A DNA stretch of 15,191 nucleotides, from positions 1 through 15,191 of the forward strand of contig JANJXE010000216.1 of assembly GCA_024709185.1 (NCBI GenBank). Reading direction: 5' to 3'. This DNA is from Paludibacter sp. (GTDB taxonomy: Bacteria > Bacteroidota > Bacteroidia > Bacteroidales > Paludibacteraceae). Position 1 is the first letter of the stretch; each line of letters starts with the position of its first letter. Under the pieces are notes generated by a model. The model was given only the letters and a program-made list of their open reading frames with translations. It made no database searches and was not told the origin of the DNA. Positions 648 through 15,191 of the stretch are shown in pieces. The position numbers were made by a program, and so were the translations under genes.

Positions 648-648
648 A

Positions 649-1695: not shown

Positions 1696-1700
1696 AACTT

Positions 1701-1715: not shown

Positions 1716-1728
1716 CGTACTTATTCAG

Positions 1729-1736: not shown

Positions 1737-1761
1737 TTACATAATTTTTAAAAGTTATGCA

Positions 1762-3945
1762 ATGAAACAAACATTCACTATTCTATTACTTCTTTTTTCA
1801 ACAGGTTTATTATTCGCACAAAACAAAATAACTTTTGAGGTAAAAGAAGAATCTGGCGAATCCTTAATTGGAGCAAGTGTAATTATTGAAGGAACGACGA
1901 CAGGTACAATTACAAATAATGAGGGTTTTGCAAGATTGGAGAATTTACCCAATGGCGAAATAGAGTTTGTAATTTCTTTTGTCGGCTTTAAAGAAAAGGA
2001 AATTACTTTATCTTTTCCAGATGACAACAACAAAACGATTGAAGTTGAGCTGGAAGAAGGAGAAGAACTTGAAGAAGTTGTAATTGCAGCAACAAGGTCT
2101 TCCCGAACAATTCAGGATATTCCAACAAGAATTGAAGCAATTACAGGCGAAGAATTAGGCGAAAAAGCAGCTATGAACTCAACAAATATTGGCATGCTTT
2201 TAAGAGAAACCACAGGTGTGCATATGCAGCAAACCTCACTTAGTTCTGGAAATATGAGTATTCGCATTCAGGGTTTGGATGGTCGATACACACAAATATT
2301 AAAAGATGGAATGCCACTTTATGGTGGTTTCGCCGGTGGGTTATCTATTATGCAAATACCACCGCTTGACTTAAAGCAAGTTGAGCTAATTAAAGGGAGT
2401 AATTCTACTTTGTACGGTGGTGGAGCAATTGCAGGTTTGGTAAACCTTGTAACCATACGACCAGAAGAGGAAGCAAAGCTTGATGTTATGCTAAATCAAA
2501 CAAGTGCTTTGGGTACAACTGGCAATTTGTTTTATGCGCAGAAATACGGAAAAGTTGGTCTTTCAGTTTATGGCTCAGCTAATAATCAAATCGCATTCGA
2601 CCCCGACGAAGATGGTTTTTCAAATATGCCCAAAGCGCAAACTTTTAGTCTAAATCCAAAATTCTACTACTACTTCAATCCTAACACTGAATTAAGTTTA
2701 GGGTTAAACACTACCATCGATAATAGAACGGGTGGAGACATGGAAGTGATAAAGGGAAACACAAGTACTGAACATATTTTTTCCGAAGAAAATAAATCGG
2801 AACGTTATGCTACGCAATTAAGTTTTCGGAATACAACCGATGACAGAACATTCTCTTTTAAAAATAGTGTTTCCTATTTTGACAGAAAACTAAGTATTCC
2901 AGACTACCGATTCAGTGGAAATCAATTATCCAGTTTTACCGAAGCCATATACAATTTGCATAAAAACGATAATACAGAATGGCAATTGGGATTAAACCAT
3001 TATCTCGAACAGTTTACAGAGACAGACGCTGACTCATATTCTGCAAGAGATTATACACATAACACCTTTGGTGGCTTTATTCAAAACACTACCGATTTTA
3101 GTAAAAAACTTGGGTTAGAAACTGGTTTACGAACCGACTACAATGCTGACTATGGGACATTTGTGCTGCCACGTTTTTCATTGTTATTTAAACCTAACAA
3201 TAAATTAAGTTCACGACTTGGCGGTGCTATGGGTTACAAGCTTCCTACAATTTTCACCGAAGATGCTGAGAGAATTTATTATCGGGATATTCAACCATTA
3301 TCAAAAGACCTGGTAGATGCAGAAACTTCAATAGGAGGAAATTTCGATATAAATTACAAAACCGCATTGGGCGATGAAATGACTTTCTCAATCAACCAAC
3401 TCTTCTTTTTGACTCAGCTAAAAAATGCATTGGTTTTACGGGAAGACGAAACAATGGGCATGGCTTATTTTGAAAGCGCTGATGGTAACATTTTAAGTTC
3501 AGGCTTTGAAACCAATATAAAACTAACATACGACGATTTTAAACTCTATTTAAACTACGCCTTTGTTAATACCGAATTACAATACGATAATATCAATAAT
3601 CAGAAACCACTTACACCAAAGCACAATGCGGGTGCAGTATTATTCTATGAAATTGAAGAAAAATGGTCTGCTGGATATGAGGTTTATTACACTGGGAAAC
3701 AGTTCGATAATTTATACAATCAAAAAACAGATTATTGGACAATGGGAATAATGATTATGCGACATTGGGAACGTTTATCTTTATTCGTGAATTTCGAGAA
3801 CTTTACAAACGTTATGCAATCTGATTTTGAACCTTTGGTTTTGCCGCCAACAAATAATCCTACTTTCCCTGATATTTGGGCACCGGCTGATGGATTTGTA
3901 TTTAATGGAGGAATAAAACTTAGATTATCAGGCGACAATGATTAA
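1762..3945 (+). CDS. TonB-dependent outer-membrane receptor, probably metal or metallophore related
   Basis: A 727-residue outer-membrane receptor that takes up a substrate using energy from TonB-ExbBD. Residues 1-20 are a signal peptide ending in LLFAQ. Residues 22-105 are a carboxypeptidase-regulatory-like domain (GASVIIEGT, NGEIEFVISFVGFKEKEI), common in Bacteroidota receptors. Residues 110-240 form the plug, with EEVVIAATRSSRTIQDIP at its start, RIQGLDGRYTQILKDGMPL in the middle and VELIKGSNSTLYGGGAIAGLVNLV at its end. The remainder is rich in alternating aromatic strands of the 22-strand barrel. No SusD partner follows, so this is not a glycan system; the Fur regulator before it and the CDF-like gene overlapping its end point to a metal or metal-chelate substrate. 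The substrate is inferred. Confidence 0.88.
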   Translation: MKQTFTILLLLFSTGLLFAQNKITFEVKEESGESLIGASVIIEGTTTGTITNNEGFARLENLPNGEIEFVISFVGFKEKEITLSFPDDNNKTIEVELEEGEELEEVVIAATRSSRTIQDIPTRIEAITGEELGEKAAMNSTNIGMLLRETTGVHMQQTSLSSGNMSIRIQGLDGRYTQILKDGMPLYGGFAGGLSIMQIPPLDLKQVELIKGSNSTLYGGGAIAGLVNLVTIRPEEEAKLDVMLNQTSALGTTGNLFYAQKYGKVGLSVYGSANNQIAFDPDEDGFSNMPKAQTFSLNPKFYYYFNPNTELSLGLNTTIDNRTGGDMEVIKGNTSTEHIFSEENKSERYATQLSFRNTTDDRTFSFKNSVSYFDRKLSIPDYRFSGNQLSSFTEAIYNLHKNDNTEWQLGLNHYLEQFTETDADSYSARDYTHNTFGGFIQNTTDFSKKLGLETGLRTDYNADYGTFVLPRFSLLFKPNNKLSSRLGGAMGYKLPTIFTEDAERIYYRDIQPLSKDLVDAETSIGGNFDINYKTALGDEMTFSINQLFFLTQLKNALVLREDETMGMAYFESADGNILSSGFETNIKLTYDDFKLYLNYAFVNTELQYDNINNQKPLTPKHNAGAVLFYEIEEKWSAGYEVYYTGKQFDNLYNQKTDYWTMGIMIMRHWERLSLFVNFENFTNVMQSDFEPLVLPPTNNPTFPDIWAPADGFVFNGGIKLRLSGDND

Positions 3946-4735
3946 ATCAGAATACCACATATCGAAAATGGATTGTCCATCCGAAGAAAACATGATTCGT
4001 ATGAAGTTGGATGGAATAGAGGTTATCAGGAAATTGGAATTCGATATTGAAAATCGCAATCTTACTGTTTTTCATTCTCGGGAAGATGAAGAAATATTAT
4101 CGCGTCTGGAATCATTAAACTTTGGAGCAAAACATACATATTCAAGTTCTATTGATGAAAAGGAAGTAACAATAGAAAGTTCCGATGTACAATCAAAACT
4201 GTTATGGACGATACTCATAATTAATTTTGGATTTTTCATAATTGAAATGACTACCGGACTTATTTCAAAGTCAATGGGTTTGGTGGCAGATTCTTTAGAC
4301 ATGTTAGCTGATTCTTTTGTATATGGATTAAGTCTTTGGGCAGTTGGTTCAACAGTTCTGAGAAAAAAGAAAGTTGCACGTTGGAGTGGTTATTTTCAAT
4401 TATCCTTAGCCTTTTTAGGTATTATAGAAGTGGTAAGACGATTTATAGGTTCTGAAGAAATGCCAGACTACAGAATTATGATTGGAGTTTCAGTTTTAGC
4501 ATTAACTGCCAATGCCATCTGTTTGTACCTACTCCAGAAATCGAAAAGTAAAGAAGCACACATGAAAGCCAGTATGATTTTTACTTCCAACGATGTAATA
4601 ATAAATTCAGGAGTTATTTTAGCTGGAGTATTGGTGTTGCTGACCCAATCAAAATATCCTGATTTGATTGTTGGTTCTATTGTTTTTTTGATTGTATCTC
4701 AGGGTGCATTTAGAATATTGAAACTTGGGAAATGA
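3938..4735 (+). CDS. HMA-like/CDF-like cation transporter
   Basis: A 265-residue inner-membrane protein. Residues 1-70 have the fold of a heavy-metal-associated domain, but its usual MxCxxC loop reads MDCPSEE (11-17), leaving one cysteine. Residues 85-262 hold about six hydrophobic segments like a cation diffusion facilitator. The second segment has ADSLDMLADS (D118, D121, D125), matching the DxxxD/HxxxD metal site. The fifth has SNDVIINSG, where D219 is kept but the partner four residues before is F215 rather than His or Asp. The C-terminal cytoplasmic domain of full CDF proteins is absent. The start codon overlaps the receptor stop by eight bases, so the two are translationally coupled. Cytoplasm-to-periplasm export of a divalent cation is the likely role, but the altered site leaves the metal open. 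Confidence 0.8.
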   Translation: MIKSEYHISKMDCPSEENMIRMKLDGIEVIRKLEFDIENRNLTVFHSREDEEILSRLESLNFGAKHTYSSSIDEKEVTIESSDVQSKLLWTILIINFGFFIIEMTTGLISKSMGLVADSLDMLADSFVYGLSLWAVGSTVLRKKKVARWSGYFQLSLAFLGIIEVVRRFIGSEEMPDYRIMIGVSVLALTANAICLYLLQKSKSKEAHMKASMIFTSNDVIINSGVILAGVLVLLTQSKYPDLIVGSIVFLIVSQGAFRILKLGK

Positions 4736-5126: not shown

Positions 5127-6059
5127 ATGACAATAATTGAGCAAATAATTGAAGAATTATCCGATTCCGAAAAGTCATTAACAAACCCACTGTTAAAGAC
5201 AAAAATCCTTGCAACCAGGATTGGAAACAAGGAATTGATGGATTGGTCAAATAAAGAATTAAGTGGTTACAAGGATAAAGAATTACCAAGTTATAGATAT
5301 GGAAAGTGTAATCTGACTTGCACTATGCAACAAGGATTTTATACGCAAGATAATGTTCCTTTACCATTGATGGTATTTCCGAAGGATTTTGTAAAGGAAA
5401 TGGCTCGATTTAGATTTGATGATAGTGTTCAAACTTTAGAAAGCCAAGAAAGGGAAAATAAAAATGGAATGATTTATAAAGAGTTTGGACCTGATATGTG
5501 TGCCTATTTGACAAGATTGGCAATGGATGCAGGGCAAAACTTTAGCATATCTAATTTAAGAGTTATTGTTCATGTTGGACAGATTACTCAAACATTAGCT
5601 GAAATTAGAGCAAAATTGCTTGATTTTATGCTCCAAATAGAAAAGGAACTACCTGACTTAGATGACCTAATTAAAAACAAATTGACAGTGAAAGAAAATG
5701 TTAATGAAAAGGTAGAGAAAATCTACAATCAAACGATTATTAATGCAAGTGGTTATGGTAACACTATTTCTGCTGGTGATTATAATACTATTAATTCTAC
5801 AATTACTATAAATCAAGGCAACATAGATGAATTTAAGGAAGAATTGAGAAAGTATAAAGTTAGCGAAGAAGATGTAACTGATATCGCTGAAATTATACAG
5901 AATGAGAAACCTGAAGTAACTACTGGAAAATTTGGGACAAAAACGAATAATTGGATTCAAAAAATGATAAGCAAAACCTTAGATGGAACATGGCAGATAG
6001 CTACAGGAACTGCTGGTGGATTACTTGTTGAATTGATAAAAAGTTATTACGGAATGTAA
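5127..6059 (+). CDS. AbiTii-domain protein, probable defence gene
   Basis: A 310-residue protein. The N-terminal 185 residues fit the AbiTii domain, with the recognisable block LLKTKILATRIGNKEL (22-37), then WSNKELSGY and ELPSYR. AbiTii domains are named for abortive infection and occur in suspected anti-phage proteins; the mechanism is unknown. Residues 200-230 are a short Asn/Gly/Thr-rich beta-prone stretch with the repeated words GYGNTI and DYNTI. Residues 288-308 form a Gly-rich hydrophobic helix that could insert in a membrane. The ATG at 5127 starts the conserved domain at once. The gene stands alone, framed by an inverted repeat pair (5099-5108 and 6068-6077) like a captured cassette, and runs convergently toward the phage genes. 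Confidence 0.7.
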   Translation: MTIIEQIIEELSDSEKSLTNPLLKTKILATRIGNKELMDWSNKELSGYKDKELPSYRYGKCNLTCTMQQGFYTQDNVPLPLMVFPKDFVKEMARFRFDDSVQTLESQERENKNGMIYKEFGPDMCAYLTRLAMDAGQNFSISNLRVIVHVGQITQTLAEIRAKLLDFMLQIEKELPDLDDLIKNKLTVKENVNEKVEKIYNQTIINASGYGNTISAGDYNTINSTITINQGNIDEFKEELRKYKVSEEDVTDIAEIIQNEKPEVTTGKFGTKTNNWIQKMISKTLDGTWQIATGTAGGLLVELIKSYYGM

Positions 6060-6135
6060 AAATAAACGGTTGCCAATCGAGTGGACTGCCCTGCCGGCAG
6101 TTAACCTACAAAGTTTGCCCCTCAAAGAAAGAGAT
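6060..6135. other. Junction between the accessory region and the phage segment
   Basis: GGTTGCCAAT at 6068-6077 is the inverted partner of GTTGGCAACC at 5099-5108. A perfect ten-base palindrome CTGCCGGCAG lies at 6091-6100, within a hairpin ACTGCC (6085-6090) / GGCAGT (6096-6101). The phage reading frame stops at 6122, only a few codons past its conserved motif. The exact join cannot be fixed without a reference copy of the phage, but it should fall between about 6078 and 6140. There is no tRNA or integrase next to it. Confidence 0.45.
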
Positions 6136-7012
6136 TTGCAACCACCGGCACCGCATGACACCTGCACTGCGGATGCCAGCCGATGAATCGAAAAGACTTT
6201 GGGTATTTCCCTTTCTTTGATTCACATACCGGACAATTGAAGAACCGATTTGACCTGATGATTTCAATCCCGGTAACAAAGTCCAACTGTTGGTACTTTT
6301 CATAATCAGCAACACGATATGCCATGTTAATCTCCGTTCTGGTGAGGCGCATGGCATTCTTATATGAACTACGATATACACCGGGGCCGGGATGATATTT
6401 TTGGGCGTTTTTGGAGAGGTGAAGAATTCCGTGCTTGTCTTTCACTCTCCGGAAAAGCTTATCCGGATTTTGTAGGTACTGGCGCAAGTCCCGACTAAGC
6501 TGAGCAGCAGATCGTCCCTCACCTAATGCGATGTCGATTCCCAGTTCCAGTTCTCCTTTGAATTGCAGGGAGTAGTTCCACACACGGTCGGAAAGTCCCA
6601 GCCCGTTAATTTTCCTTTCCTGAAAAGCCTTCAATGCCTCCATATTTCGGCTTTTAAAGCGTGAAAGCTGTTCGGATGATAGTTTGGTTGCCTGAGACAT
6701 AAATTCGACGATTTGGTCGTTCTTAAAGCTCGAAGCAAGCCATTCCTGCCGTGACATCTCTCGGATATGAGAATACATCTGAGCGTTCAATAGATTGATG
6801 ATGGAATCCGCCTTTCGCTGAGCTTTGGGAAAGTTCTCAAAAGCAAACGGAACAGCAGGACTGGCAACAATTCCTTCCACTATCGTAGCAGCTTCATTGA
6901 TGGCCGACAAGTAGAGTTTTTGCAGTTGCAGAATGTACTGTTCAATGCGTTGATAATGCTGGCGGTCGTAGCTTATACCAATCTCCTTAACGGTGTATTG
7001 TGTTTTGTTCAT
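6122..7012 (-). CDS. Phage minor head protein, SPP1 gp7 / Mu gpF-like, probably C-terminally truncated
   Basis: A virion protein carried with the portal that helps build the phage head and eject DNA. The N-terminal 130 residues are helical. Residues 215-289 carry the hallmark C-terminal domain: RLTRTEINMAYR (222-233), RFFNCPVCESKKG (256-268) and GWHPQCRCHAVPV (278-290), a Cys/His cluster of the gp7/gpF family. Only six further residues follow (VANLFL). Relatives in Bacteroidales phages usually continue well beyond this motif, so I infer that the true 3' end is lost at the junction just downstream. The start overlaps the 63-aa gene as ATGA. No scaffold, capsid or tail gene follows, which supports a break here. 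Confidence 0.82.
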   Translation of the reverse strand: MNKTQYTVKEIGISYDRQHYQRIEQYILQLQKLYLSAINEAATIVEGIVASPAVPFAFENFPKAQRKADSIINLLNAQMYSHIREMSRQEWLASSFKNDQIVEFMSQATKLSSEQLSRFKSRNMEALKAFQERKINGLGLSDRVWNYSLQFKGELELGIDIALGEGRSAAQLSRDLRQYLQNPDKLFRRVKDKHGILHLSKNAQKYHPGPGVYRSSYKNAMRLTRTEINMAYRVADYEKYQQLDFVTGIEIIRSNRFFNCPVCESKKGKYPKSFRFIGWHPQCRCHAVPVVANLFL

Positions 7013-7200
7013 ACTGGTTCAATCCATCTGTCGTTAATCGTATCTCCTACCTTGATACGACCTTGCGCCCAAAGAGTATTGAGCGCTTGCCGTACCTTTT
7101 CGTAAACTTCCCTTTTAGTTGCGTAGGTTGGGAATTTTCGAGCCGATTGTTTCTCCTGAACAATCTCACTTATAACCTGCATCAATGCTTCTTCCATCAT
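7009..7200 (-). CDS. Small phage protein between portal and minor head genes
   Basis: A 63-residue protein that I do not recognise. It is predicted mostly helical at residues 1-45 (MMEEALMQVISEIVQEKQSA, then REVYEKVRQALNTLW), followed by a short basic turn and the ending GDTINDRWIEPV. The helix-plus-wing look might suit a small winged-helix fold, but there is no diagnostic motif. It overlaps the portal stop and the minor-head start by four bases each (ATGA in both cases), so it is certainly translated within the virion operon. Confidence 0.7.
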   Translation of the reverse strand: MMEEALMQVISEIVQEKQSARKFPTYATKREVYEKVRQALNTLWAQGRIKVGDTINDRWIEPV

Positions 7201-8615
7201 ACGGATGTTGGGAATGATTGAATAGTGTTGAGTTCCTTTTCTTCCTGCTGAATTTGCCGAAGTTCTGCTTCTGCATCTGCAACAAATCCAGCCATTTTAA
7301 CCCCTGTTTTTTGCGACATAACAGCTTTATTTCCGGTTGCTGTCATAATCACTTCCAGCTTATCGGATTCATCATCCATCATGAAGGGAGTTATCATGAA
7401 TTCAATATCTGTTGCTTTGGCAATTGAAGCCAGTTTGGTGTTGAAGTGACCGATGAAAGCCTTAACAACCGATGTTCTGCGCTGAAGGTATTCATCAAAC
7501 ACCTCCATGTGGTCTTGCACCTTTAAATGAGCATCGAGAAACATCAGTTTAAGAGCCTTTCCGGATATTCCTGTTCCGATGGATTTCACATTCTCAAAAG
7601 CGATGTTTGGAGTCTGACTTATGGTATAGATTAAGTCCAGTAGAGAAGAAATCTCCAACTTCACAGCTTCCGGAGCGTGTGTCCATGAAAGATAGTTAGC
7701 TTCTGATTCCTTTTCTCCAACTAGGATTTTTCCGCTTTCTCCCTTCTTTGAGAAACCTTTGATAGTACCTTTCACAAAGATGGTAGGCGAAGCATGATAA
7801 TCGTTCGTATCAGCGAAGTTAGAGAGTAGTTTTTCCAGGCGTTCAATCATGCATTGCACATCCTCGTAATCGGCTGTTTCAGTTTGAGCGTAAACGATAG
7901 GAATTTTACCGATTGGATTTTCTTTTGGGAAACCTTCAACAAGGGTTGCAGCACCTTCTGTTATATCGAACTTATAGATGAAGTTATCCGTATAGGTTTC
8001 AAAGTAACGTTTGTTTCGTCCGGTATTTTTGGTAGTGTATTCCCGTGAGAAAGCCACCATATCACCGTAATCATTGAAATAGGGATAGAGTATATCTCCC
8101 TTCATAGGGTTGAGTATCGACATCCGGAGTTTAAACCGTGAGCCAATACCATAGCGGGGCTCTTCTCCTTCCTCCAAAGGGACAGGATACCACAGTTCGG
8201 CAATCTCAGTACAGGAGAATAGAGCCTTTGCAATCTTTCGGTTTAAGGAGTTGATTTTGACATCATCCATTATCTCTTGGAATGCTGTAAAAACCAACTT
8301 CTGTTGTTCGTTGGCTGTCGCCTGAAGAACATGTTCAACCGGATTACCAAAGAGAAAAGAGGCTGCTCGCTTTACTATCAACTTTTGAAGAGCAAGGGCT
8401 ATTCGAGCCACCTTTTCGGTTCTGATTTCACCGTTTTCGTTTTTAATCAGCTTATTGGGTCGCTCTATCTCATCAAAGATAAGATGCTTTTGCGGGTCAA
8501 TAGCTGAAATGTATTTTTTAATGTCGGGAAGTTCCGCACCCCGACCTTTCTTTAGCTCCTGAATGATTTCCTCAGGGGTTGTCATTGTAAAAATCTCATC
8601 AACACTCATAATCAT
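7197..8615 (-). CDS. Phage portal protein, SPP1 gp6-like
   Basis: Subunit of the dodecameric ring at the capsid vertex through which terminase packs DNA. At 472 residues it has the usual length for SPP1 gp6-type portals. Recognisable blocks are RPNKLIKNENGEIRTEKVAR (about 52-71), VKRAASFLFGNPVEHVL (about 80-96), the helical TLVEGFPKENPIGKIPIVYA before the stem region, and NIAFENVKSIGTGISGKALK (about 342-361), typical of the wing-to-stem part. The position after terminase and before the gp7-like gene is the standard order. The frame is open to a TTG at 8618; I choose the ATG at 8615, and the ATG at 8609 is also possible because no strong ribosome site decides. Confidence 0.88.
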   Translation of the reverse strand: MIMSVDEIFTMTTPEEIIQELKKGRGAELPDIKKYISAIDPQKHLIFDEIERPNKLIKNENGEIRTEKVARIALALQKLIVKRAASFLFGNPVEHVLQATANEQQKLVFTAFQEIMDDVKINSLNRKIAKALFSCTEIAELWYPVPLEEGEEPRYGIGSRFKLRMSILNPMKGDILYPYFNDYGDMVAFSREYTTKNTGRNKRYFETYTDNFIYKFDITEGAATLVEGFPKENPIGKIPIVYAQTETADYEDVQCMIERLEKLLSNFADTNDYHASPTIFVKGTIKGFSKKGESGKILVGEKESEANYLSWTHAPEAVKLEISSLLDLIYTISQTPNIAFENVKSIGTGISGKALKLMFLDAHLKVQDHMEVFDEYLQRRTSVVKAFIGHFNTKLASIAKATDIEFMITPFMMDDESDKLEVIMTATGNKAVMSQKTGVKMAGFVADAEAELRQIQQEEKELNTIQSFPTSV

Positions 8616-8628
8616 CAACTTAAAAATC

Positions 8629-10131
8629 TTAGTAAAATAATCCGCTTAAATCCTGCACGTTATTGTGGTTGTGTGGATAGAAGGTGTTAGCCAGTGCATC
8701 AAACTTATCGGGTGAGCGTTTAATCCTCTCCACTAAGTTCTCCTTCTTCTCGATAGCTATGGAGCCGTTCGATTGAAACACCCATTTGATTTCAGTAGCT
8801 TCCTCCAACAGCTCATCATCTGGCGGCAGGCAGGGATAGTTTTTGTTTTTAGGATCGAGCCAGTCACGTACACACCAGTACAGGTAGGCTTTCATATTCA
8901 GAAAGGTATAAACTCCGGTTACATCGTTCAGTCCCGAAGCACTTTCAGAGAATTTGCATGAAACGGCATTGTCAAAACCGAGCTCTAAAAGCCGGGAATA
9001 AACTCCAGCTCCTTCACCAATAGTATCAATAAAAGCCATTACCCGCTTATCTTTCAGATGTCGGGCAATCATTCCGGTTACATGCATGTGGTCAGCCTTT
9101 CCTCCGGATTGATGGAGTTGAAAGCGTTCAACAAACTTGCCGTAACGATGACAAAGCACCGAACGGTCACGACCCATTCCGGCCACATCAGCACCGATGA
9201 TAAGTTTGGAATGGTTAATGGGTTGTTCCTGCGTGTAAATCTCCCAGTTCCGGTTGGCAATCTCTATCCATTCGTAAGGGATAAGAACATCTTCTGCAAC
9301 CTTTGGAAACATCCCTCTCACCTTCACACGGAAAAGGTCGTTGGGTCGATAAAAACTACCTTCCCATACAAAGTCACCCTCTCCCTCGTTGAAATCATCC
9401 TCTGAGATAGGAGTTGTCCATGTCACTACCTTATCCTTTACCCATTCATAGTCCACCTGTCCGGGAATCCTGTTTTCTTTGGTAACCACATTCTCCGCAT
9501 TAAGAGAATCCAGCCGGAATTTAGAGAATCGTTCCGCTTTCATTGCCCGTGCAGCATAGCCTGTTGTTACGTTTGGGTTGAAGACAATTAACAGCCGTGA
9601 ATTACCCTGTAAGTTCCCTTCTATAGCGTTGAAAGTAGTTTCGGTAATACCTGATGCCTCCGTTACGACAAACATCGTATTGGAAGCGTGAAAGCCTGAC
9701 CATGCTTCTGTTGCATCGTCTCCTGCCTTGAATCCGGTAAGAAACCACTCCTCATAGTTAGTCCGGATGTCACCTGCAACCAATCGCCCAGGCAAACATC
9801 CTGCATTGCGAAATAGTCGCCTGACTTCCGGAACCATGATATTCAGCACCTGTCGTCCTGTAGGGGCTGTCATTGCTACCTTGGTGTTTTCTACCAGTCT
9901 GCCATCTTTTGAGAATTTTGGAGTGAGGTAAAGAAAGCATAAGCTGGCACAAGCAGCCACGAAGTCCTTCCCTCGTGCTGTTCCACTTGCTACGGCAGTC
10001 ATGGGATTGTGTTGTACCGATGAAATGATAGCCTGCTGTTCGTGATCCAGCCGGGCTTTCAAAACATCCCTCACAAAGAGATTCCAGTCTTCCTGCCAGC
10101 GCTTAAAACTTTTAATATACTTTTCATTCAT
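8629..10131 (-). CDS. terL: Terminase large subunit (TerL)
   Basis: The ATP-driven motor and nuclease that packs and cuts phage DNA. At 500 residues it is full length. The N-terminal ATPase has a Walker A-like loop ASGTARGKD (48-56), a TAPTGRQV segment (88-95), and Walker B MFVVTEAS (153-160), in which Thr replaces the usual first Asp while the catalytic Glu is kept. A coupling-like segment follows at LIVFNPN (181-187). The C-terminal RNase H-like nuclease shows GADVAGMGRD (313-322), AFIDTIGEGAGV (366-377) and SPDKFDAL (473-480), giving D315, D369 and D477 as likely metal ligands. Its start overlaps the small subunit stop by eight bases. Confidence 0.93.
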   Translation of the reverse strand: MNEKYIKSFKRWQEDWNLFVRDVLKARLDHEQQAIISSVQHNPMTAVASGTARGKDFVAACASLCFLYLTPKFSKDGRLVENTKVAMTAPTGRQVLNIMVPEVRRLFRNAGCLPGRLVAGDIRTNYEEWFLTGFKAGDDATEAWSGFHASNTMFVVTEASGITETTFNAIEGNLQGNSRLLIVFNPNVTTGYAARAMKAERFSKFRLDSLNAENVVTKENRIPGQVDYEWVKDKVVTWTTPISEDDFNEGEGDFVWEGSFYRPNDLFRVKVRGMFPKVAEDVLIPYEWIEIANRNWEIYTQEQPINHSKLIIGADVAGMGRDRSVLCHRYGKFVERFQLHQSGGKADHMHVTGMIARHLKDKRVMAFIDTIGEGAGVYSRLLELGFDNAVSCKFSESASGLNDVTGVYTFLNMKAYLYWCVRDWLDPKNKNYPCLPPDDELLEEATEIKWVFQSNGSIAIEKKENLVERIKRSPDKFDALANTFYPHNHNNVQDLSGLFY

Positions 10132-10504
10132 CTTCCACCTGACTTGCAGCTTTCATTAATTCCTCGAATGGATTAATAGTAAGCTGGTTGTCGATGGTTT
10201 CGATGTATCCACGTTTCTTGCCTTTGGTTTTTAGAAAGAAGAAAATACTTGCTTCCTTCTGTTCGTGAATATTTTTCTTTAGCATTGACTCTGCCATGTC
10301 GAGTACTTCCTCATCCAGCTCCTCTATCCGTTCCCTGAAGTAGGGGTCGGTCTTCATCCATTCGTAAAAGCAGTTTCTCGATATCTTGGTATGCCTGCAT
10401 GATGCTGACACGTTACATGCGGACTTATCGTAAGCAGACACGAAGGTTAATTTATTCCTCCGTGTCGCAGCAGTTCCTGAGAACTTGGTTTTTTTATGTG
10501 TCAT
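10124..10504 (-). CDS. terS: Terminase small subunit
   Basis: The DNA-recognition partner of the packaging motor. At 126 residues it is the usual size. A basic N-terminus is followed by a helix-turn-helix at about residues 30-52 (NVSASCRHTKISRNCFYEWM) and then FRERIEELDEEVLDMAESML, a helical oligomerisation segment of small terminases. The pattern of a KISRNCFYEW helix followed by an acidic coiled helix is typical of Bacteroidota phage and prophage small subunits. It lies directly upstream of, and overlaps, the large subunit, which confirms the role. The short acidic tail (QVEDE) contacts the large subunit in related systems. Confidence 0.85.
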   Translation of the reverse strand: MTHKKTKFSGTAATRRNKLTFVSAYDKSACNVSASCRHTKISRNCFYEWMKTDPYFRERIEELDEEVLDMAESMLKKNIHEQKEASIFFFLKTKGKKRGYIETIDNQLTINPFEELMKAASQVEDE

Positions 10505-10520
10505 ATTATGTCATTCCATT

Positions 10521-11198
10521 TCACTCGAATAATGTACTTTGAATTGATTGTTCGGGTTTGCTCTTCTCCGGCTGATAGGATTTGTACTTGTAGGACTTGA
10601 GTGTTTCAATCTCCGCTTTCTTTTGATTTGAAGCATTTAACCAGTCCTTGTCAGTCCAGCGTTTCCGGCAGGCATCACGGTAATTCAACTCATTGGGCTG
10701 TACCTTGTGGTTATCAACCAGACTACCTTCGGTGAAAAAGTCCTCGATGGTTTTACCTTTGATTTTGCCCCTTCGTGTGTGGATATCCAAAGCGTAATCA
10801 GGAATCTGTCTCATCTTGGTATCAACGAAAAGGTGAGAATCAAAGTAGTAGTTCAACGCCCAGTCGGTATGCCTGCTTTTGGGTGAGTTAACCAAATAGA
10901 GAATAGCCTGCACATAGGGCAATCGTTCCTGCTTCTTCTTGTCTCCCTTGTTTGAGGATAGTTTTTCGTACTGCCAGTAAAGAGAATTGATGACAACCGT
11001 TGCCATAGGATTAGCCAGACCGATATCCTCCGTTGAGATGATAAACATCCGTTTCCATGCATAGGGGATGAAGCCACTTTCGTACAGCTCCACACCCCAA
11101 TACATGGCTCCTTCTTCGTTGCACCTTCTGATTTCTTTCTGAAAAGCGGAAACAACCTCGAACAGGTCGTAACCGTTTAATGTCGTTACTTGCTCCAT
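10521..11198 (-). CDS. Stand-alone RarA/MgsA C-terminal-domain protein
   Basis: Residues 8-120 match the C-terminal collar/oligomerisation region of RarA (MgsA) ATPases: DLFEVVSAFQKEIRRCNEEGAM, then MFIISTEDIGLANPMA (51-66; compare the family core SEDIG-ADP) and QAILYLVNSPKSR (97-109). Residues 133-160 (PDYALDIHTRRGK ... EDFFTEG) extend this. The AAA+ ATPase module with Walker motifs is entirely missing, so this is not a RarA enzyme but an isolated domain; such forms occur in phages. The last residues read QSTLFE, close to the QL[SD]LF peptide that binds the beta sliding clamp. Recruitment to the replication fork is therefore plausible. It lies between the glycosyltransferases and terminase in one operon. 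The function is not established. Confidence 0.75.
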   Translation of the reverse strand: MEQVTTLNGYDLFEVVSAFQKEIRRCNEEGAMYWGVELYESGFIPYAWKRMFIISTEDIGLANPMATVVINSLYWQYEKLSSNKGDKKKQERLPYVQAILYLVNSPKSRHTDWALNYYFDSHLFVDTKMRQIPDYALDIHTRRGKIKGKTIEDFFTEGSLVDNHKVQPNELNYRDACRKRWTDKDWLNASNQKKAEIETLKSYKYKSYQPEKSKPEQSIQSTLFE

Positions 11199-11225
11199 AT
11201 CTTTCTGTAAATTAGGTTTTTATAT

Positions 11226-12050
11226 TTATTCAAACTTACAATTGGATAAGTGATTTTGCAAGCTGTCATCTTCGCAGTTTAACGAAGTATAACGATATTT
11301 ATCTAAGTAGTAACTGATGTCTACATCGACACCAAACCAGCTCGAGCCGGGCTTTTCCTTCACTTCGGGAAAATCCTTTTGAAGAAGGTGGATAGTGTCT
11401 AAAGCATCCTGTTTGCGGTTGTAAACCTGACATCCTTCCTTGTTAGCATTCTGCACTACCTTTAGGCCGGATAAGCCGTAATTAAGCGTGTGAAAGCCTT
11501 TCTTCCACATGTAAAGAGAGGTGAGTGTATTGGTAAACTCCCGCATATCGGGATTAATTTCTTCAACAGCATCCAGTCGGATCATTGCAATACCCTGAAG
11601 TGGTTTATTGAGGTGTGTCCATTTGTGGATATTTTTCTTTGAGTAAAGCCAGTAACGGTACTGAGTAAAGCGTATCCCACCGATTGATGGGAATTGTTCC
11701 ATAGCCTGATGGCAGTCTGAAAGAGTCTGCATAAATGCTTCCAATGGTTCTTCTGTATCAATACGGGCAAAGCCATCTACATCATCATCGAGCTGGAAAA
11801 GGTATTTGAAACCCTTTTCTTTAGCGTACCTTCTGATGTAGTTGAGTGAGTACATTAAGCCCTGCTTTGATTCAGGAAGTGTTTCGACTGCATCACCTAA
11901 GTAGTACTTATACAGAAAACGTTCCTTTGGCTCAACAAATACCTTTACATTGGGCAGTTCTTTTGCCCACGACATGGTTTTCTTTGTGATGTATTCCGGA
12001 CGTGAAAGTGATGGAATACCGATGAATGTATCTTTTAAAAATGGCTTCAT
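11226..12050 (-). CDS. GT-A-like glycosyltransferase, phage TAGT-type (second of two)
   Basis: A 274-residue protein with a nucleotide-sugar transferase-like fold. The N-terminus reads FIGIPSLSRPEYITKKT (9-25) and the donor-metal motif is FQLDDDVDGF (85-94). Further blocks are GIRFTQYRYW (125-134) and a LQGIAMIRLD segment, and the C-terminal part ends with HLLQKDFPE and GSSWFGVDVD. The best fit is the phage glycosyltransferases linked to TET/JBP and base hypermodification (TAGT-like), which add sugars to modified bases. It appears to be a distant paralogue of the gene before it. The ATG at 12050 is two bases past the previous stop; a TTG at 12056 with a four-base overlap is the alternative. 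The acceptor (DNA base or other) is inferred only from neighbours. Confidence 0.65.
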   Translation of the reverse strand: MKPFLKDTFIGIPSLSRPEYITKKTMSWAKELPNVKVFVEPKERFLYKYYLGDAVETLPESKQGLMYSLNYIRRYAKEKGFKYLFQLDDDVDGFARIDTEEPLEAFMQTLSDCHQAMEQFPSIGGIRFTQYRYWLYSKKNIHKWTHLNKPLQGIAMIRLDAVEEINPDMREFTNTLTSLYMWKKGFHTLNYGLSGLKVVQNANKEGCQVYNRKQDALDTIHLLQKDFPEVKEKPGSSWFGVDVDISYYLDKYRYTSLNCEDDSLQNHLSNCKFE

Positions 12051-12052
12051 AA

Positions 12053-12799
12053 TCAATAAGGAAATTTAAGTGAACGTTCTCCGATGTTTACATTCTGTTT
12101 AAGAGCTGTTGGTTCCTTGTACTGGATAGCTTCTCCAAACTTTTGCCGCAGGTAGAGCGTGTTTCTTATCATGCTCTCACGGGTGCGATAGTCATTACAT
12201 CCTCCCAAAGCGGTGAAGTTTCCATCAGTAACAAATGAATACCGATTATCGATAAGGCAATATCGGTGCATGTAGATAGTGAGACAGGAAATGTAATGGT
12301 CTTCACCTTCTGAAAGATTCAGGTCGTATGCCAGTCCGTGTCCTCTGATGAAACCACAGAATGAAGCATTCATGTAACCAGTATGTACAATGGGTGAAAA
12401 AGCATTGTATTCAAGTGGATTCCTGATTTTAGAAAATGAGAAAACCCTCGAATTGATTTGCTTTGAGATATAGGCCGTTTGATTGATGATTTCAAGTATT
12501 GTTTCCGGGTCATCGATAGTTCCGGAACCTTCCCCGTAGAAGTAGTTCTTTCTCACTGATACCACATCATCATCAATCATAAAAACATCCTCACTGGCCC
12601 AGTTATCCAAGATCCATTGCCGTGTATGAGTTATCCCTCTGATATGCGAAGGAACACCCACCACTTCCGTTTTGGGATTGTGAGCTTTATAGTCTTCCGC
12701 TTCTCCTGCAGGAACAACCAGTACCAGTGATGGAATGAGTCGGGTTGTCCGAACATTATTTGCCCTTCCTTTTGACGGGCACACTATCTTAATTGACAT
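12053..12799 (-). CDS. GT-A-like glycosyltransferase, phage TAGT-type (first of two)
   Basis: A 248-residue protein. It opens with MSIKIVCPSKGRANNV and has the GT-A metal motif VFMIDDDVVSVRK (72-84), a FCGFIRGHG turn (148-155) and a GED at 165-167, where inverting GT-A enzymes carry their catalytic acid/base. The C-terminal LYLRQKFGE resembles LLQKDFPE of the next gene, suggesting an old duplication. I take the ATG at 12799 rather than the in-frame ATG at 12859: the PSKGR core then starts at once and a strong GGGAGGAGG ribosome site lies about 7 bases upstream. The start overlaps the ParB-like gene by 11 bases. Such enzymes cluster with ParB-like proteins in predicted DNA-modification operons. 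Confidence 0.68.
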   Translation of the reverse strand: MSIKIVCPSKGRANNVRTTRLIPSLVLVVPAGEAEDYKAHNPKTEVVGVPSHIRGITHTRQWILDNWASEDVFMIDDDVVSVRKNYFYGEGSGTIDDPETILEIINQTAYISKQINSRVFSFSKIRNPLEYNAFSPIVHTGYMNASFCGFIRGHGLAYDLNLSEGEDHYISCLTIYMHRYCLIDNRYSFVTDGNFTALGGCNDYRTRESMIRNTLYLRQKFGEAIQYKEPTALKQNVNIGERSLKFPY

Positions 12800-13427
12800 T
12801 TGTAGCCTCCTCCCAAATTTCCTGAAAACGTTGAACAGTAAGTACGTGTGCTTCTCCAATTTTGGAGTTTTTGTAATCCTTCATCTTCTGAAGTTTAAGT
12901 ACGTTCCTCAGCCAGTTTAAGTCCATCTCGTTATCACAGAAAATCATGATAGTTGAGTATTTCTCATTGAACTGCTGAACTATCGGCATTTCAGCATTGT
13001 CGTTTGTGATGGCTTTGAATTTTTCCTCAAACTCACTTTGGATTTTGCCTATCTCCTTGTCAGTAAAACCTACTTCAAAAAGGAATTTCTTATCGAAGAA
13101 CTCATTGAGCATTTCGAAGTCAAACTCAGCCTGATTCTTATTGAGTCGAAGGTTAAGCTCCTTTTCCCCCTGTTCATCCAGCGTTACTTCAATACAGGGA
13201 GCTTCGGTGTAACCCATAGCCTTAGCGATTTTCAGACGTTGATTACCACCAACTACTATGTTCAACCTGTCAGGATGAACGTTTACTACCAAAGGCTGAA
13301 CAAAGCCAAAGGTTTGGAGTGATTTTTTGATGTCCTCCCGTTGCTTAGCTGTTATCTTGCGGGGGTTGTACGTAGGTTCGATTAATGAATCGATGTCCTT
13401 GTATACTATTTTTAGATTGTTTTCCAT
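12789..13427 (-). CDS. ParB/Srx-fold protein, phage DNA-modification type
   Basis: Residues 8-100 form a ParB N-terminal domain: IEPTYNPRKI (16-25), LQTFGFVQPLVVN (37-49), VVGGNQRLKIAKAMGY (58-73) and RLNKNQAEFD (94-103). The GGNQR motif takes the place of the GEHR/GGHR box that binds nucleotide in chromosomal ParB. No centromere-binding helix-turn-helix follows; instead residues 145-205 form a second region (FNEKYSTIMIFCDNEMDLNW ... GEAHVLTVQRFQEIW) seen in phage ParB-like proteins that travel with methylases and base-modifying enzymes. At 212 residues it is far from a plasmid partition ParB, and no ParA is nearby. It heads the glycosyltransferase block after a 52-base gap. Confidence 0.82.
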   Translation of the reverse strand: MENNLKIVYKDIDSLIEPTYNPRKITAKQREDIKKSLQTFGFVQPLVVNVHPDRLNIVVGGNQRLKIAKAMGYTEAPCIEVTLDEQGEKELNLRLNKNQAEFDFEMLNEFFDKKFLFEVGFTDKEIGKIQSEFEEKFKAITNDNAEMPIVQQFNEKYSTIMIFCDNEMDLNWLRNVLKLQKMKDYKNSKIGEAHVLTVQRFQEIWEEATNVN

Positions 13428-13479
13428 ACTACAAAAACGAATGTAAATATACTAATTAATGCTTATATGATAAGCACTT
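13428..13479 (-). promoter_or_regulatory. Intergenic gap with perfect hairpin/palindrome upstream of the ParB-like gene
   Basis: This is the widest gap in the phage gene block. TGCTTAT (13460-13466) and ATAAGCA (13470-13476) form a perfect 7-base inverted repeat around three bases, immediately after the NinG-like stop codon. On the - strand TACATTCG (one base off TAnnTTTG) lies between the palindrome and the ParB-like start codon. It may be an operator with an internal promoter for the modification and packaging genes, or a weak attenuator; it has no long T-run in the direction of transcription. Confidence 0.35.
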
Positions 13480-13917
13480 TTATTTTAAAAAAATTTGATT
13501 TTTCTCTAATGTTTCTAATTTTTTCTTGTACAAAGCTATCAGCATATCCAGCTCTGAATCAGTTAGTTGACAGGAGTTGAAACGTTTTAATTCCAGCATT
13601 TCGACGTTCTTTTCACCCACCTTTTCTATTAATCCACGTCTATATCCTTGAATGTTACCTTCTGTAAACCTGTTGCACTGAATGCACTGAGCGTTGACGT
13701 TCATCTCATCGTATCGGGTTGCCATGTGGCGACGATTGATGTAATGGCCGGCATCGCATTTATGGAAGTGAATAACACGACCACAACTTATGCAATATCC
13801 GTAGGCGAAACCGCAGTCCCGACGACGGATGTACTGGCTGAAAATTCTGTCCAATCGTGCTATCTTTCTGCTTCTGGGGGTGGTGGGTGTTTTCTGCTTT
13901 TGTCTATTCCACCACAT
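13480..13917 (-). CDS. ninG: NinG/Rap-like recombination endonuclease
   Basis: A 145-residue homologue of lambda NinG (Rap), a structure-specific nuclease acting on recombination intermediates in phage DNA. The N-terminus is basic (RQKQKTPTTPRSRKIARLDRIF). Residues 43-82 hold the zinc-binding HNH-like core: CISCGRVI (43-50), KCDAGHYINRRH (53-64), then MNVNAQCIQCNR (72-83). These pair CxxC with CxxC around the conserved DAGHYI..R block of the family. Lambda NinG is longer (about 200 residues); the C-terminus here is shorter. It follows SSB by three bases, in a replication/recombination cluster. Confidence 0.85.
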   Translation of the reverse strand: MWWNRQKQKTPTTPRSRKIARLDRIFSQYIRRRDCGFAYGYCISCGRVIHFHKCDAGHYINRRHMATRYDEMNVNAQCIQCNRFTEGNIQGYRRGLIEKVGEKNVEMLELKRFNSCQLTDSELDMLIALYKKKLETLEKNQIFLK

Positions 13918-13920
13918 ACA

Positions 13921-14343
13921 TTAGAAAGGTAATCCGTTATTATTCACTGCGGGTTCCGGCATATCAACACGCCTGGGCTCACCAAAAGATTCCGGACTCA
14001 TTGTTGGTTGAGCGGGTTCTGTTCTGGCGCTTAACAGCTCCAAACTGGTAACATCGAGATTAAGCGCTATTTGATGAGTGTTGCTGGCCTGACTTGCAAA
14101 GAGTTTAGCCGAGAAGCGACCTTCGACATAGACTTTTGTCCCTTTTTTAAGATACGCTGTGAGTGATGAATTTTCCCCCACACGTTTCAAGCAGGATACC
14201 CATTGTGTTTTTTCGTGTTCCACTCCCTGACTGTCTTTGAATTTGTCAGTGTGAGCAACTGAAAATGAAATGAAACTAGCCGTTCCAAATGTCTTCAGGA
14301 CTGCATCCTGTCCCAAATGACCTATTACTGTTAATTTTAGCAT
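13921..14343 (-). CDS. ssb: Single-stranded DNA-binding protein
   Basis: A 140-residue SSB. Residues 1-105 form the OB-fold: MLKLTVIGHLGQDAVLKTFG, FISFSVAHTDKFKDSQGVEHEKTQW (24-48), then LKKGTKVYVEGRFSAKLF (65-82). A disordered Pro-rich tail follows and ends NNNGLPF. The terminal LPF matches the bacterial SSB tip (DDDIPF) that recruits partner proteins, but the acidic residues before it are largely missing, so partner binding may differ. Its start codon lies within the last codons of the 50-aa gene (7-base overlap, ATGCTAA), indicating coupled translation. Confidence 0.93.
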   Translation of the reverse strand: MLKLTVIGHLGQDAVLKTFGTASFISFSVAHTDKFKDSQGVEHEKTQWVSCLKRVGENSSLTAYLKKGTKVYVEGRFSAKLFASQASNTHQIALNLDVTSLELLSARTEPAQPTMSPESFGEPRRVDMPEPAVNNNGLPF

Positions 14344-14489
14344 AATTGATTTTTGAGTTTTTGTTTATGTTCTTTCCACTTGTTTATGAATAGACTTCTT
14401 GCGGCCAAGTTACCTTTGAAGTCTTTTAACCTGCGACAATACTCCATGATTGTCATTTCAGATAAGTCCTTGTAATCCATTCTCATCAT
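14337..14489 (-). CDS. Overlooked 50-aa basic phage protein upstream of ssb
   Basis: A 50-codon frame begins ATGATGAGAATGG at 14489 and ends with TAA at 14337-14339. An excellent ribosome site, AAGGAGGAG (14492-14500), lies just ahead of the start. It overlaps the end of the 233-aa gene by 32 bases and the ssb start by 7 bases. The product is basic and helical (YKDLSEMTIMEYCRRLKDF, then NKWKEHKQKL). I do not recognise a family. The tight overlaps and the strongest Shine-Dalgarno of the region argue that it is translated. Confidence 0.68.
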   Translation of the reverse strand: MMRMDYKDLSEMTIMEYCRRLKDFKGNLAARSLFINKWKEHKQKLKNQLC

Positions 14490-15159
14490 AACTCCTCCTT
14501 AATCGATTCCGGTGTATTTTCTTTTTGATAAGATTCCTGATTTTCTGTCGGGCTTGCTTTCGCTTCATTGCCCTGTAGGTTTCGTAGGTAACAGCATTGG
14601 CAGCCCATAGCGCTCGCTTTTGTTCCCGATTCTGATGCTCTAACTTCTCTTCGTGCTTTCTTATCTCTCTTTGCCGTTCCGAAAGGAAATGATTTTTGGC
14701 AGTCATGATCTTAAGCGGGTCAACCGTGCCGTAGAACTCACCGAAGGTTCCCAGTTTGAGCTTTACCATGAAAAGAGCAACTTCAGCGATATTCAGAAAG
14801 TAGCAATCGTAGTAGAACAGCGTTGAAAGCTCCTCTATCTGGAAGTCCGACATTTTCTCCTTCACACCCACATAGTCGCAAAGATTATCAAACTGAATTT
14901 TCAACCAGTTGATGGGAGCCATCTCCGAGTACACCTTTGCAACTTTGGCCAAGGTAGGATAAGGATAGTAATGACATTGGACATAGTCCGCTCGTTTGGA
15001 GAGGATTATGGTCTGAATCCGGGGGTTAAAACGTTGGGCAAATTCCATGTAGGTTTGACCGAACTGGCTTTTAATTTCTATAATCTCCTGAGATTCGGGC
15101 TGCTTCTTCTGCAATACGTTGCTTGCGGGCATCTGTATTAATTCTCCTACTGTTTTCAT
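14458..15159 (-). CDS. Uncharacterised phage protein of the replication/recombination cluster
   Basis: A 233-residue soluble protein without a family I can name for certain. The first 20 residues (MKTVGELIQMPASNVLQKKQ) look like a short binding segment. Residues 30-150 are mixed and aromatic-rich (YVQCHYYPYPTLAKVAKVYS, then LFYYDCYFLNIAEVALFMVK). Residues 150-225 are a long, highly charged, strongly basic helical region (EIRKHEEKLEHQNREQKR, then KRKQARQKIRNLIKKKIHRN), which suggests nucleic-acid contact. It heads the visible part of the operon, 15-32 bases from an AT-rich leader, and overlaps the next small gene. The position before ssb and ninG suggests a replication or recombination accessory role; this is a guess from context. 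Confidence 0.75.
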   Translation of the reverse strand: MKTVGELIQMPASNVLQKKQPESQEIIEIKSQFGQTYMEFAQRFNPRIQTIILSKRADYVQCHYYPYPTLAKVAKVYSEMAPINWLKIQFDNLCDYVGVKEKMSDFQIEELSTLFYYDCYFLNIAEVALFMVKLKLGTFGEFYGTVDPLKIMTAKNHFLSERQREIRKHEEKLEHQNREQKRALWAANAVTYETYRAMKRKQARQKIRNLIKKKIHRNRLRRSYDENGLQGLI

Positions 15160-15191
15160 TGTTTTTTAGTTCAAAGACTCCGGCCCAGTTG

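Follow-up and report, generated by a model that had tools for sequence, protein, structure and literature searches.

A recurrent ParB-TAGT gene block, often with a free RarA C-terminal domain, as a probable DNA-glycosylation module of phages and a phage-derived integrative element

What is made by four adjacent minus-strand genes that lie between ssb/ninG and terminase in a contig of Paludibacter sp., and on what does the product act? The stretch analyzed (15,191 nucleotides, one entire contig) is called the window. A first-pass annotation had placed here genes for a ParB-like protein, two glycosyltransferases (GT1 and GT2) and an isolated RarA C-terminal domain (RarA-C), and had proposed that they glycosylate DNA bases. 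Reading frames and profiles confirmed the four genes and their position, and each protein scored over its Pfam cut-off in a profile scan of the window proteins (Table 1). On balance, the block probably serves phages, and an integrative element derived from a phage, as a DNA-glycosylation module.

Table 1. Features of the window, with positions, strand and supporting matches.
Feature	Positions	Strand	Match
Element's own SSB, 140 aa	13921-14343	-	PF00436, 51.3 bits
NinG/Rap-like junction endonuclease	13480-13917	-	PF05766, 89.3 bits
ParB-like protein, 212 aa, ParB_N at residues 11-87 plus conserved C-terminal region	12789-13427	-	PF02195, 31.1 bits (cut-off 26.3); phrog_620, 119 bits
GT1, conserved TAGT-family GT-A glycosyltransferase, 248 aa	12053-12799	-	PF20691, 45.7 bits (cut-off 27.5); phrog_842, 87.9 bits
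GT2, second TAGT-family glycosyltransferase, exchangeable slot	11226-12056	-	PF20691, 48.5 bits (cut-off 27.5)
Free-standing RarA/MgsA C-terminal domain protein, 225 aa	10521-11198	-	PF12002 MgsA_C, 47.5 bits (cut-off 27)
Probable terminase small subunit, before large subunit	10124-10504	-	phrog_4044, E 2.7e-6
Terminase large subunit	8629-10131	-	phrog_2, 97 bits
Portal protein, SPP1 type	7197-8618	-	PF05133, 165.3 bits
MuF-like minor head protein	6122-7012	-	phrog_7625 and others
AbiTii-like defence protein	5127-6059	+	PF18864, 124.9 bits; PADLOC AbiTii, 128.1 bits

The GGNQR previously noted in ParB was read again in the translation, the DDD motif was present in both glycosyltransferases and invariant across 17 aligned GT1/GT2 rows, and both enzymes are TAGT-like by PF20691, as had been claimed. 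For GT1, the longest frame runs from 12053 to 12859 and phrog_842 was matched over residues 21-252, nearly full length; the most likely start is the ATG at 12799, as in the related loci L004 and L005, and there the first bases of GT1 lie within the 3' end of parB. GT2 may start at ATG 12050 or TTG 12056. The two enzymes had also been called old duplicates. They share a family, but at ~17-18% identity and in separate parts of the tree, with GT2 in a clade apart from GT1, descent by an old duplication is only possible.

Of the two partner proteins, the window ParB has at residues 12-135 a match to the PADLOC model for type II methyltransferases. No ParA partner was found beside it (its neighbors are NinG and GT1), and none is annotated beside the ParB of phage Jayden. 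The RarA-C protein matched RarA structures in a profile search (3ctd, 2r9g, 3pvs) and with Foldseek (2r9g, 3ctd, 8g28, 3pvs), and near the C-terminus its family conserves the stretch PDYxxDxHTRxGK. A Pfam scan of this protein found no AAA+ ATPase and no second domain; the host RarA frames listed were 334-548 aa, save one of 272 aa (G190, 48 bits).

Recurrence in other phages, on which the first-pass annotation had made its proposal depend, was found across distantly related phages. ParB adjoined the TAGT, or stood one gene away, in 25/25 TAGT loci read, and RarA-C was present at 20 of the 25; these comprised all 23 of the 23 GT1-profile loci with L086 and L088, most were chosen by GT1 similarity (four were not), and the profiles for the 23 were built from many of those same loci. 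Loci L012-L014, L017-L020, L057, L061, L062, L086-L089, L015, L016 and L021 were scored independently. With all reading frames scanned, ParB was found in each of L015, L016 and L021 and RarA-C in L016, and the ParB of L086 was weak (29.6 bits with the family profile, no Pfam match). L013/G222 and L014/G341 were each taken as the same contig and counted once. The assignment of L018 to Lachnospiraceae is in doubt, as this locus is near-identical to L017, yet the bins were assigned to different phyla. At every locus read the TAGT came with a ParB-like protein, and most of the pairs had a free RarA-C as well. The block goes beyond a chance neighborhood, since L003 keeps all four proteins (96-98% identity) and remote loci keep GT1, at 25-28% identity, with ParB adjoining.

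Among 393 genomes of the order Bacteroidales, GT1 matched five. The RarA-C matches listed at >200 bits in these genomes were just four short frames, each ≤1.5 kb from GT1, two of which were taken as the L013 and L014 contigs; the diverged RarA-C of G326, seen on reading L057, was among the weaker matches of that search. The TAGT and RarA-C matched the same 56 Microbacterium phage records, ~1.5 kb apart; these stand for 42 named phages, cultured in the laboratory, that carry the module. The gene row of Jayden is ParB, TAGT, UDP-glucose dehydrogenase, RarA-C. The TAGT profile also matched Shigella phage ESH35, with sub-cut-off or borderline matches in G556, G723, G510, G466, G509, G476 and G477, and it rang in the control genome Bacteroides ihuae too; all these matches lie outside the loci read. 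The window RarA-C matched 85 phage records, of which 11 labeled 'Bacteriophage', 5 of Listeria, 2 of Acinetobacter, 2 of Enterococcus and those of Bacillus except SP-15 were not read. A link to SP-15, a hypermodified phage, was dropped, its RarA being of full-length size (CDS 170498-171787, 429 aa) and encoded by gene 218, away from modification genes 146-155.

Around the core, genes are exchanged between lineages. In a sister element, GT2 is replaced, gene for gene, by a methyltransferase and another glycosyltransferase, and DNA similarity between the window and L004 is interrupted over 11201-12052 only. The lineage-variable genes, found either next to ParB or in the interval from TAGT to RarA-C, include a second TAGT, a SAM methyltransferase, another glycosyltransferase, a UDP-sugar dehydrogenase, UDP-galactopyranose mutase, ATP-grasp and a PLP decarboxylase; an N6_Mtase gene lies within the L087 block. 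Sugar-chemistry genes were present at L057, Jayden, L004, L007 and L008, and the variable genes fit sugar chemistry.

Judged by its relatives, the window appears to span the right-hand end of an integrated element. In the L004, L005 and L012 contigs an integrase (at the contig edge in L005) accompanies the operon, which runs as far as MuF and is followed by cargo or genes of host type. MuF is the last phage gene of the element, where DNA shared with relatives stops, and the AbiTii-like gene occupies the variable-cargo position. The terminase small subunit gene is directly downstream of RarA-C. No capsid or tail genes were recognized in L004, L005 or L012 (reading frames; Pfam on the early genes of L004), and the window's element looks satellite-like, with defence cargo. 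L003 and L012 are almost identical elements. The SSB tail (NNNGLPF in the window, DNDNGLPF in L003, DNDNGFPF in L004, NNGFPF in L005) is a possible docking site for RarA-C. In a ParB-site search of 6100-15191 no repeat family stood out, just short imperfect copies. Promoter-like matches, 23 vs 20.4, were about as many as chance gives, terminator-like matches numbered 12 vs 8.3, and within the window nothing reached the Rfam gathering score and no tRNA was found.

The AlphaFold2 model of GT1 (pLDDT 75.5, pTM 0.78) and its structural matches gave a GT-A fold, with the DDD of the alignment as acidic metal-binding motif. Its best BFVD matches were viral proteins, from E 2.8e-15 onward, with a 'Beta-glucosyl-HMC-alpha-glucosyl-transferase' of Klebsiella phage PKO111 at rank 3 and named TAGTs at ranks 4 and 5. 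The structure check cut both ways: the viral matches included TAGTs, whereas the nearest PDB folds by Foldseek were cell-surface and protein glycosyltransferases, the list being headed by surface enzymes such as WrtF, and TarS and TarP came soon after. A sequence search of the PDB gave no relative of GT1, and VIA-align listed no DNA glycosyltransferase, which is not evidence of absence. The TAGT of T6 adds a second glucose onto glucosylated hmC in DNA, as described in passages of PMC13216743 and PMC13390438. The match to TarP does not separate the readings, because the T6 TAGT has itself been published, in a passage of PMC13216743, as nearest to enzymes of the GT2 family, the entry being printed 6HI1J, which is taken to be TarP 6H1J. 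The proposal of DNA-base glycosylation was upheld in part: TAGT membership, recurrence and the viral TAGT matches speak for it and the PDB folds against it, and the expected base-making enzyme beyond the right edge found no support.

In the mechanism that we infer, ParB would position the enzyme on double-stranded DNA, as do, presumably, the ParB domains fused to phage DNA methyltransferases. RarA-C, having no ATPase motor, would recruit the enzyme to newly copied DNA, where the element's SSB may be its docking partner. GT1 would put the first sugar on a base, GT2 or its replacements would add or change an outer group before packaging, and the modified DNA may serve to evade restriction.

The TAGT family takes its name from a genomic link to TET/JBP oxygenases and was reportedly defined in a 2013 paper; that study, which may mention ParB, lay outside our literature search, in which no paper on the ParB/TAGT/RarA-C trio was found. 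A TET/JBP oxygenase, hydroxymethylase or kinase had been suspected beyond the right edge of the window, an expectation that found no support: none was recognized in relatives running on to the integrase, in a pair of larger contigs, of 39 and 61 kb, or in two complete phage records. A GT-B alpha- or beta-glucosyltransferase was not among the families listed for 45 and 49 proteins scanned (for the latter, 25 of 27 families were listed). The main competitor is the usual glycosylation of a 5-hydroxymethylpyrimidine, its enzyme being too diverged to see or supplied by the host; it overlaps the DNA-glycosylation reading, differs on the acceptor alone, and is unlikely but a serious contender. Most small early genes match no family, and TET/JBP profile searches (0/11 and 0/8 genomes or records) rang in none of their positive controls, as this competitor allows. 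Against it, none of seven records from phages or viruses (five are contigs and maybe fragments; Jayden and Javan291 are complete) gave a thymidylate-synthase-type gene in a search whose controls rang in 9/14 genomes, and the single match in each of seven cellular genomes was off the block's contig in the five compared.

More tentatively, ParB-TAGT(-RarA-C) may be a self-contained glycosylation machine that needs no hydroxymethylated base, acting by direct joining or with an unrecognized base-activating partner. In the direct-joining variant, the sugar would be placed onto an ordinary base, e.g., on an exocyclic amine, at a site that ParB opens or activates. In either variant the outer decorations would be swapped as cassettes. 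If true, a DNA-borne sugar that needs no hydroxymethylation would be a new chemistry and a new route to sugar-modified DNA, and would bear on the understanding of restriction and modification-sensing defences.

That the glycosyltransferases instead decorate a virion or host protein (e.g., portal, MuF or terminase), hence their place beside head genes, is improbable. The block is often just upstream of terminase in the loci read, and in the circularly permuted genome of Jayden it also stands shortly before the terminase small subunit. This location is no pointer to a protein target, because ParB-methyltransferase genes are also found shortly before terminase (in Javan49 and Javan100, ParB is fused to an adenine methyltransferase, with three genes between). 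Moreover, the TAGT is accompanied at each locus read by a ParB like those that form fusions with DNA methyltransferases, the RarA-C domain belongs to DNA repair, and the best viral structural matches of GT1 are TAGTs. The block could be an anti-host or inter-phage weapon of a satellite that acts on a host DNA or factor and not in self-protection, as the AbiTii cargo and the lack of recognized capsid or tail genes in the window's element would suit; we give this little credence, since the block is also found in L007 and L008, larger contigs with tail-type genes as judged by eye, and in Microbacterium phages that have a complete set of structural genes, and the frequent proximity to terminase is expected for self-modification ahead of packaging. 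Modification of a cell-surface glycan, for superinfection exclusion or seroconversion, is the least credible reading: surface enzymes lead the PDB matches, and UDP-galactopyranose mutase and UDP-glucose dehydrogenase are surface-sugar enzymes too, but the pairing with ParB and RarA-C is left unexplained, and the sole surface-glycosyltransferase locus read (L090 of G560, a weak sub-cut-off TAGT match in a polysaccharide locus by eye) has neither of the two.

Taken as a DNA-glycosylation module, the block can be set beside several known systems. GmrSD/DUF262 type IV restriction also has a ParB/Srx fold domain acting on glycosylated DNA, in the account of PMC4619093; GmrSD is there described as cutting glucosylated hmC DNA, whereas the ParB of the block partners a glycosyltransferase, and the likeness is one of fold description. 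With RarA/MgsA the C-terminal domain is common by profile and fold, but the block protein is without the AAA+ ATPase. The ParB-methyltransferase fusions of phrog_498 have a similar ParB (34.8-37.9% identity over ~125-135 residues, 30 listed of 156); their catalytic part is the fused methyltransferase, whereas the block has a separate glycosyltransferase. The TAGT of T-even phages (beta-glucosyl-HMC-alpha-glucosyltransferase) is of the same Pfam family as both glycosyltransferases and of the same PHROG, and GT1 is closest to this group in structure. T6 is described as having an hmC pathway and an alpha-glucosyltransferase that adds the first sugar; for the block, no alpha- or beta-glucosyltransferase family was among those listed for the proteins scanned and no hmC maker was found. 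Comparable too are the solitary phage TAGTs of PMC13216743, where 288 of 753 phage genomes have a TAGT but no alpha- or beta-glucosyltransferase and potentially encode novel transferases; the block likewise has a TAGT with neither seen. ParB and RarA have a term count of 0 in the main text of PMC13216743, whereas both are partners in the block, and solitary TAGTs of this kind gain a genetic frame: ParB, often RarA-C, and exchangeable decorators.

The window is an entire contig of 15,191 bases from a genome in 558 contigs, and the genes on it are listed in the table. The four block genes named in the first-pass annotation were confirmed, all exceeding curated Pfam cut-offs: the ParB protein (ParB_N, 31.1 bits; cut-off 26.3), the TAGT-family glycosyltransferases GT1 and GT2 (45.7 and 48.5 bits; cut-off 27.5) and RarA-C, a free RarA/MgsA C-terminal domain (MgsA_C, 47.5 bits; cut-off 27). 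Nearly all of GT1 was also covered by phrog_842, 'beta-glucosyl-HMC-alpha-glucosyltransferase' (87.9 bits). As the likely GT1 start lies just within the parB frame, and GT2 starts at, or a few bases from, the GT1 stop, translation of ParB, GT1 and GT2 is probably coupled. Metal-handling genes were seen by eye beside the element both in the window and in a Paludibacter relative (L068, heavy-metal efflux genes).

Coordinates of features in the window and in the loci compared with it
Sequence	Feature	Coordinates	Strand
Window	Host-type genes (by eye) and AbiTii gene	1 to ~6,060	+
Window	MerT/MerP-like, Fur-like and CDF-like genes (by eye)	1-4735	
Window	AbiTii gene (124.9 bits), directly after MuF	5127-6059	
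Window	Phage operon; reading order DUF6633, SSB, NinG, ParB, GT1, GT2, RarA-C, TerS, TerL, portal, MuF	6,122-right edge	-
Window	Likely GT1 ATG	12799	
Window	DNA in common with L004, 86%	12053-15191	
Window	DNA in common with L004, 92%	6058-11200	
L005	Cargo after MuF: 1,252-aa TPR-type protein, with DUF2971 and RES genes beyond it	16880-20638	
L066	Stretch belonging to the variable cargo after MuF	2793-4527	
L012	Cargo after MuF: 329-aa protein	16765-17754	
L012	Second partial copy of MuF 3' end (82%), downstream of cargo	18299-18518	
L057	UDP-galactopyranose mutase, GNAT, ATP-grasp and PLP decarboxylase genes around ParB, TAGT and 314-aa RarA-C	6812-12798	

Further loci were collected by a GT1 scan of viral contigs (6 loci), a GT1-alignment scan of genome contigs (10 loci) and tblastn (one phage record, Javan291), and two whole-genome samples were searched without selection by neighbourhood. 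Among 393 genomes of the order, five carried a match to the GT1 profile; at E ≤ 0.001 the Pfam TAGT profile matched 12 of 395 genomes of the class, five of them, including the window's genome, over the cut-off. Five TAGT loci from the class sample were inspected: four strong ones, in G776 (two), G165 and G459, and a weak one. When 27 loci were scored in all frames with ParB, GT1 and RarA-C profiles, ParB accompanied a GT1-type TAGT in 23/23 loci and RarA-C in 20/23; many profile sequences were loci later scored, the independent scorings being separate scans that covered L012-L014, L017-L020, L057, L061, L062 and L086-L089, plus L015, L016 and L021. Two loci held a TAGT of another subfamily (L086, 132.4 bits; L088, 122.7 bits) adjoined by ParB (weak in L086, 29.6 bits), and RarA-C was found in neither. 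Pooled, ParB was present at 25/25 TAGT loci and RarA-C at 20/25, or 17/17 and 12/17 once we had grouped close relatives, for loci mostly retrieved by similarity to GT1 and thus not a census of all TAGTs. The lineages in which RarA-C was not found were L011 (Javan291), L015 (GT1 truncated), L021, L086 and L088. ParB directly adjoined the TAGT everywhere except in L057, where the two are separated by an ATP-grasp gene. Distant members can score under Pfam cut-offs, as did L018 (ParB 24.1 bits, RarA-C 16.6 bits), and the RarA-C of L057 and of Microbacterium phage Jayden gave no Pfam match. L017 and L018 carry a near-identical block in MAGs labelled Bacteroidales and Lachnospiraceae, and one bin assignment is probably wrong.

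The RarA-C profile matched 355 of the 393 genomes of the order, and nearly all listed matches scored ≤59 bits and were frames of 334-548 aa, as long as whole RarA. Four among the matches listed, a tally that is not a full census, exceeded 200 bits; these were frames of 201-232 aa, each with a GT1 match no more than 1.5 kb away, and two are on contigs already represented by L013 and L014.

Among cultured phages, queries with TAGT and with RarA-C returned an identical set of 56 Microbacterium phage records, amounting to 42 named phages without double accessions, with the genes ~1.5 kb apart; this related group was counted as a single lineage, and the one member inspected was Jayden, a complete phage. 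Its gene order is ParB, TAGT, UDP-glucose dehydrogenase, RarA-C (custom profiles: ParB 97.5, TAGT 96.3, RarA-C 138.5 bits), and Pfam's own TAGT model does not reach its TAGT. In Arthrobacter phage Kitkat, RarA-C (gp80) occurs without a TAGT, and its Glycos_transf_1 glycosyltransferase (gp93) and ParB gene (gp95), at a distance of 13-15 genes, may represent a variant of this arrangement built on a different enzyme fold.

The first-pass annotation had suggested that a base oxidiser or hydroxymethylase lay past the right edge. A thymidylate-synthase-type enzyme was found in none of seven phage or viral records, complete Jayden and Javan291 included, in a search whose controls gave matches in 9 of 14 genomes. 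Each of seven cellular genomes had a single such match, presumably host thyA, on a contig other than that of the block in the five compared. TET/JBP oxygenases were found in 0/11 and 0/8 genomes or records, a weaker result since no control genome gave a match. Pfam scans of 45 Jayden proteins (E ≤ 1e-5) and of 49 proteins drawn mainly from the early genes of L004, L007 and L011 (E ≤ 1e-7; 25 of 27 families shown), returned recombination, replication and regulation families and no oxygenase. Since no known hydroxymethyl source was found, two readings follow: an unrecognised enzyme makes the acceptor, or the sugar is attached to DNA by a new route. A hidden hydroxymethyl pathway, which overlaps the main reading and touches the acceptor chemistry only, is possible and rather doubtful.

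DNA is the predicted target from the TAGT family, the GT1 structure, the position of ParB and the putative roles of RarA-C and SSB as partners. The GT1 model (pLDDT 75.5) matched viral proteins from E 2.8e-15 onward, TAGTs among the best, and its best PDB match was far weaker (E 7.7e-5). Because the PDB holds no sequence relative of GT1, matches there to surface glycosyltransferases and GalNAc-transferases indicate a GT-A fold, not a substrate. Six phage records with a similar ParB domain were inspected. In Javan49 and Javan100 the domain begins an adenine methyltransferase, followed by three genes and then terminase; in NatCom_3357 three genes separate a 413-aa protein annotated ParB-like from terminase; the remaining three showed no terminase within the 3.5 kb displayed. 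A PADLOC type II methyltransferase model aligned with residues 12-135 of the window ParB. RarA proteins are described in passages of PMC8735627 as recruited to replication forks via SSB or PCNA; RarA-C retains the C-terminal half of RarA, and the element carries its own SSB, whose tail ends NGLPF. Set beside this evidence, action of the glycosyltransferases on a protein target is unlikely, a weapon against host or rivals is improbable, and action on a surface glycan, for which the PDB matches are uninformative, is more improbable still. In Bacillus phage 035JT001 (gp78-gp83), ParB, a PAPS-reductase-domain protein and a methyltransferase are consecutive, with another ParB three genes on, a candidate for another ParB-linked DNA-modification set.

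The window and its close relative L004 share DNA on both sides of a break that spans GT2 and a few bases alongside. The L004 slot is filled by a SAM methyltransferase and a GT2 35% identical to that of the window, a pair also present in L008. As L004 GT1 is sister to window GT1 in the tree and L004 GT2 groups with L008 GT2, the slot was exchanged. Elsewhere L006, L007 and L013 hold a further small glycosyltransferase (Glycos_transf_2 match below cut-off), L016 (a planctomycete MAG) a tandem second TAGT, and L087 an N6_Mtase gene within the block. The genes of L057 suggest modification with a sugar that bears an amino acid or amine; membership is least certain for this locus, whose TAGT lies slightly under the Pfam cut-off (26.0 bits) on a long branch. 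Slot exchange fits a fixed targeting core with a changeable outer decoration, which would vary in this way if defences track the exposed group.

In the relatives L004, L005 and L012 the same operon starts with a tyrosine integrase and ends after MuF, to the right of which lie cargo or host-type genes; in L004 host-type genes also lie beyond the integrase. The element comprises replication-recombination genes, TerS, TerL, portal and MuF, with the integrase known from relatives, and no capsid, tail or lysis gene was recognised in it (frames by eye, Pfam on part of the frames). Judged over window positions 5127-15191 together with L004, L005, L012 and L065-L069, it resembles a phage satellite of Bacteroidota or a prophage that has been stably trimmed. 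Cargo directly after MuF is variable, and this position is likely a hotspot for defence cargo. The partial MuF copy in L012 may be a clue to the way cargo or attachment sites are acquired. Since the block also occurs on contigs that by eye carry tail-type genes (L007, L008) and in Microbacterium phages, it is not a satellite trait.

The first-pass interpretation, that the block glycosylates DNA bases with ParB and RarA-C guiding the enzymes, is partly supported, by the recurrence with both partners and the likeness of the GT1 model to viral TAGTs; the expected hydroxymethylase was not found in the records searched. On balance we favour, with some reserve, a DNA-glycosylation module working in this manner. 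The ParB-TAGT(-RarA-C) frame without a hydroxymethyl source did not appear in the literature searched, which covered founding TAGT work incompletely. TAGT-based DNA glycosylation is already known: passages of PMC13216743 and PMC13390438 describe the T6 TAGT as placing a second glucose on glucosylated hmC in DNA.
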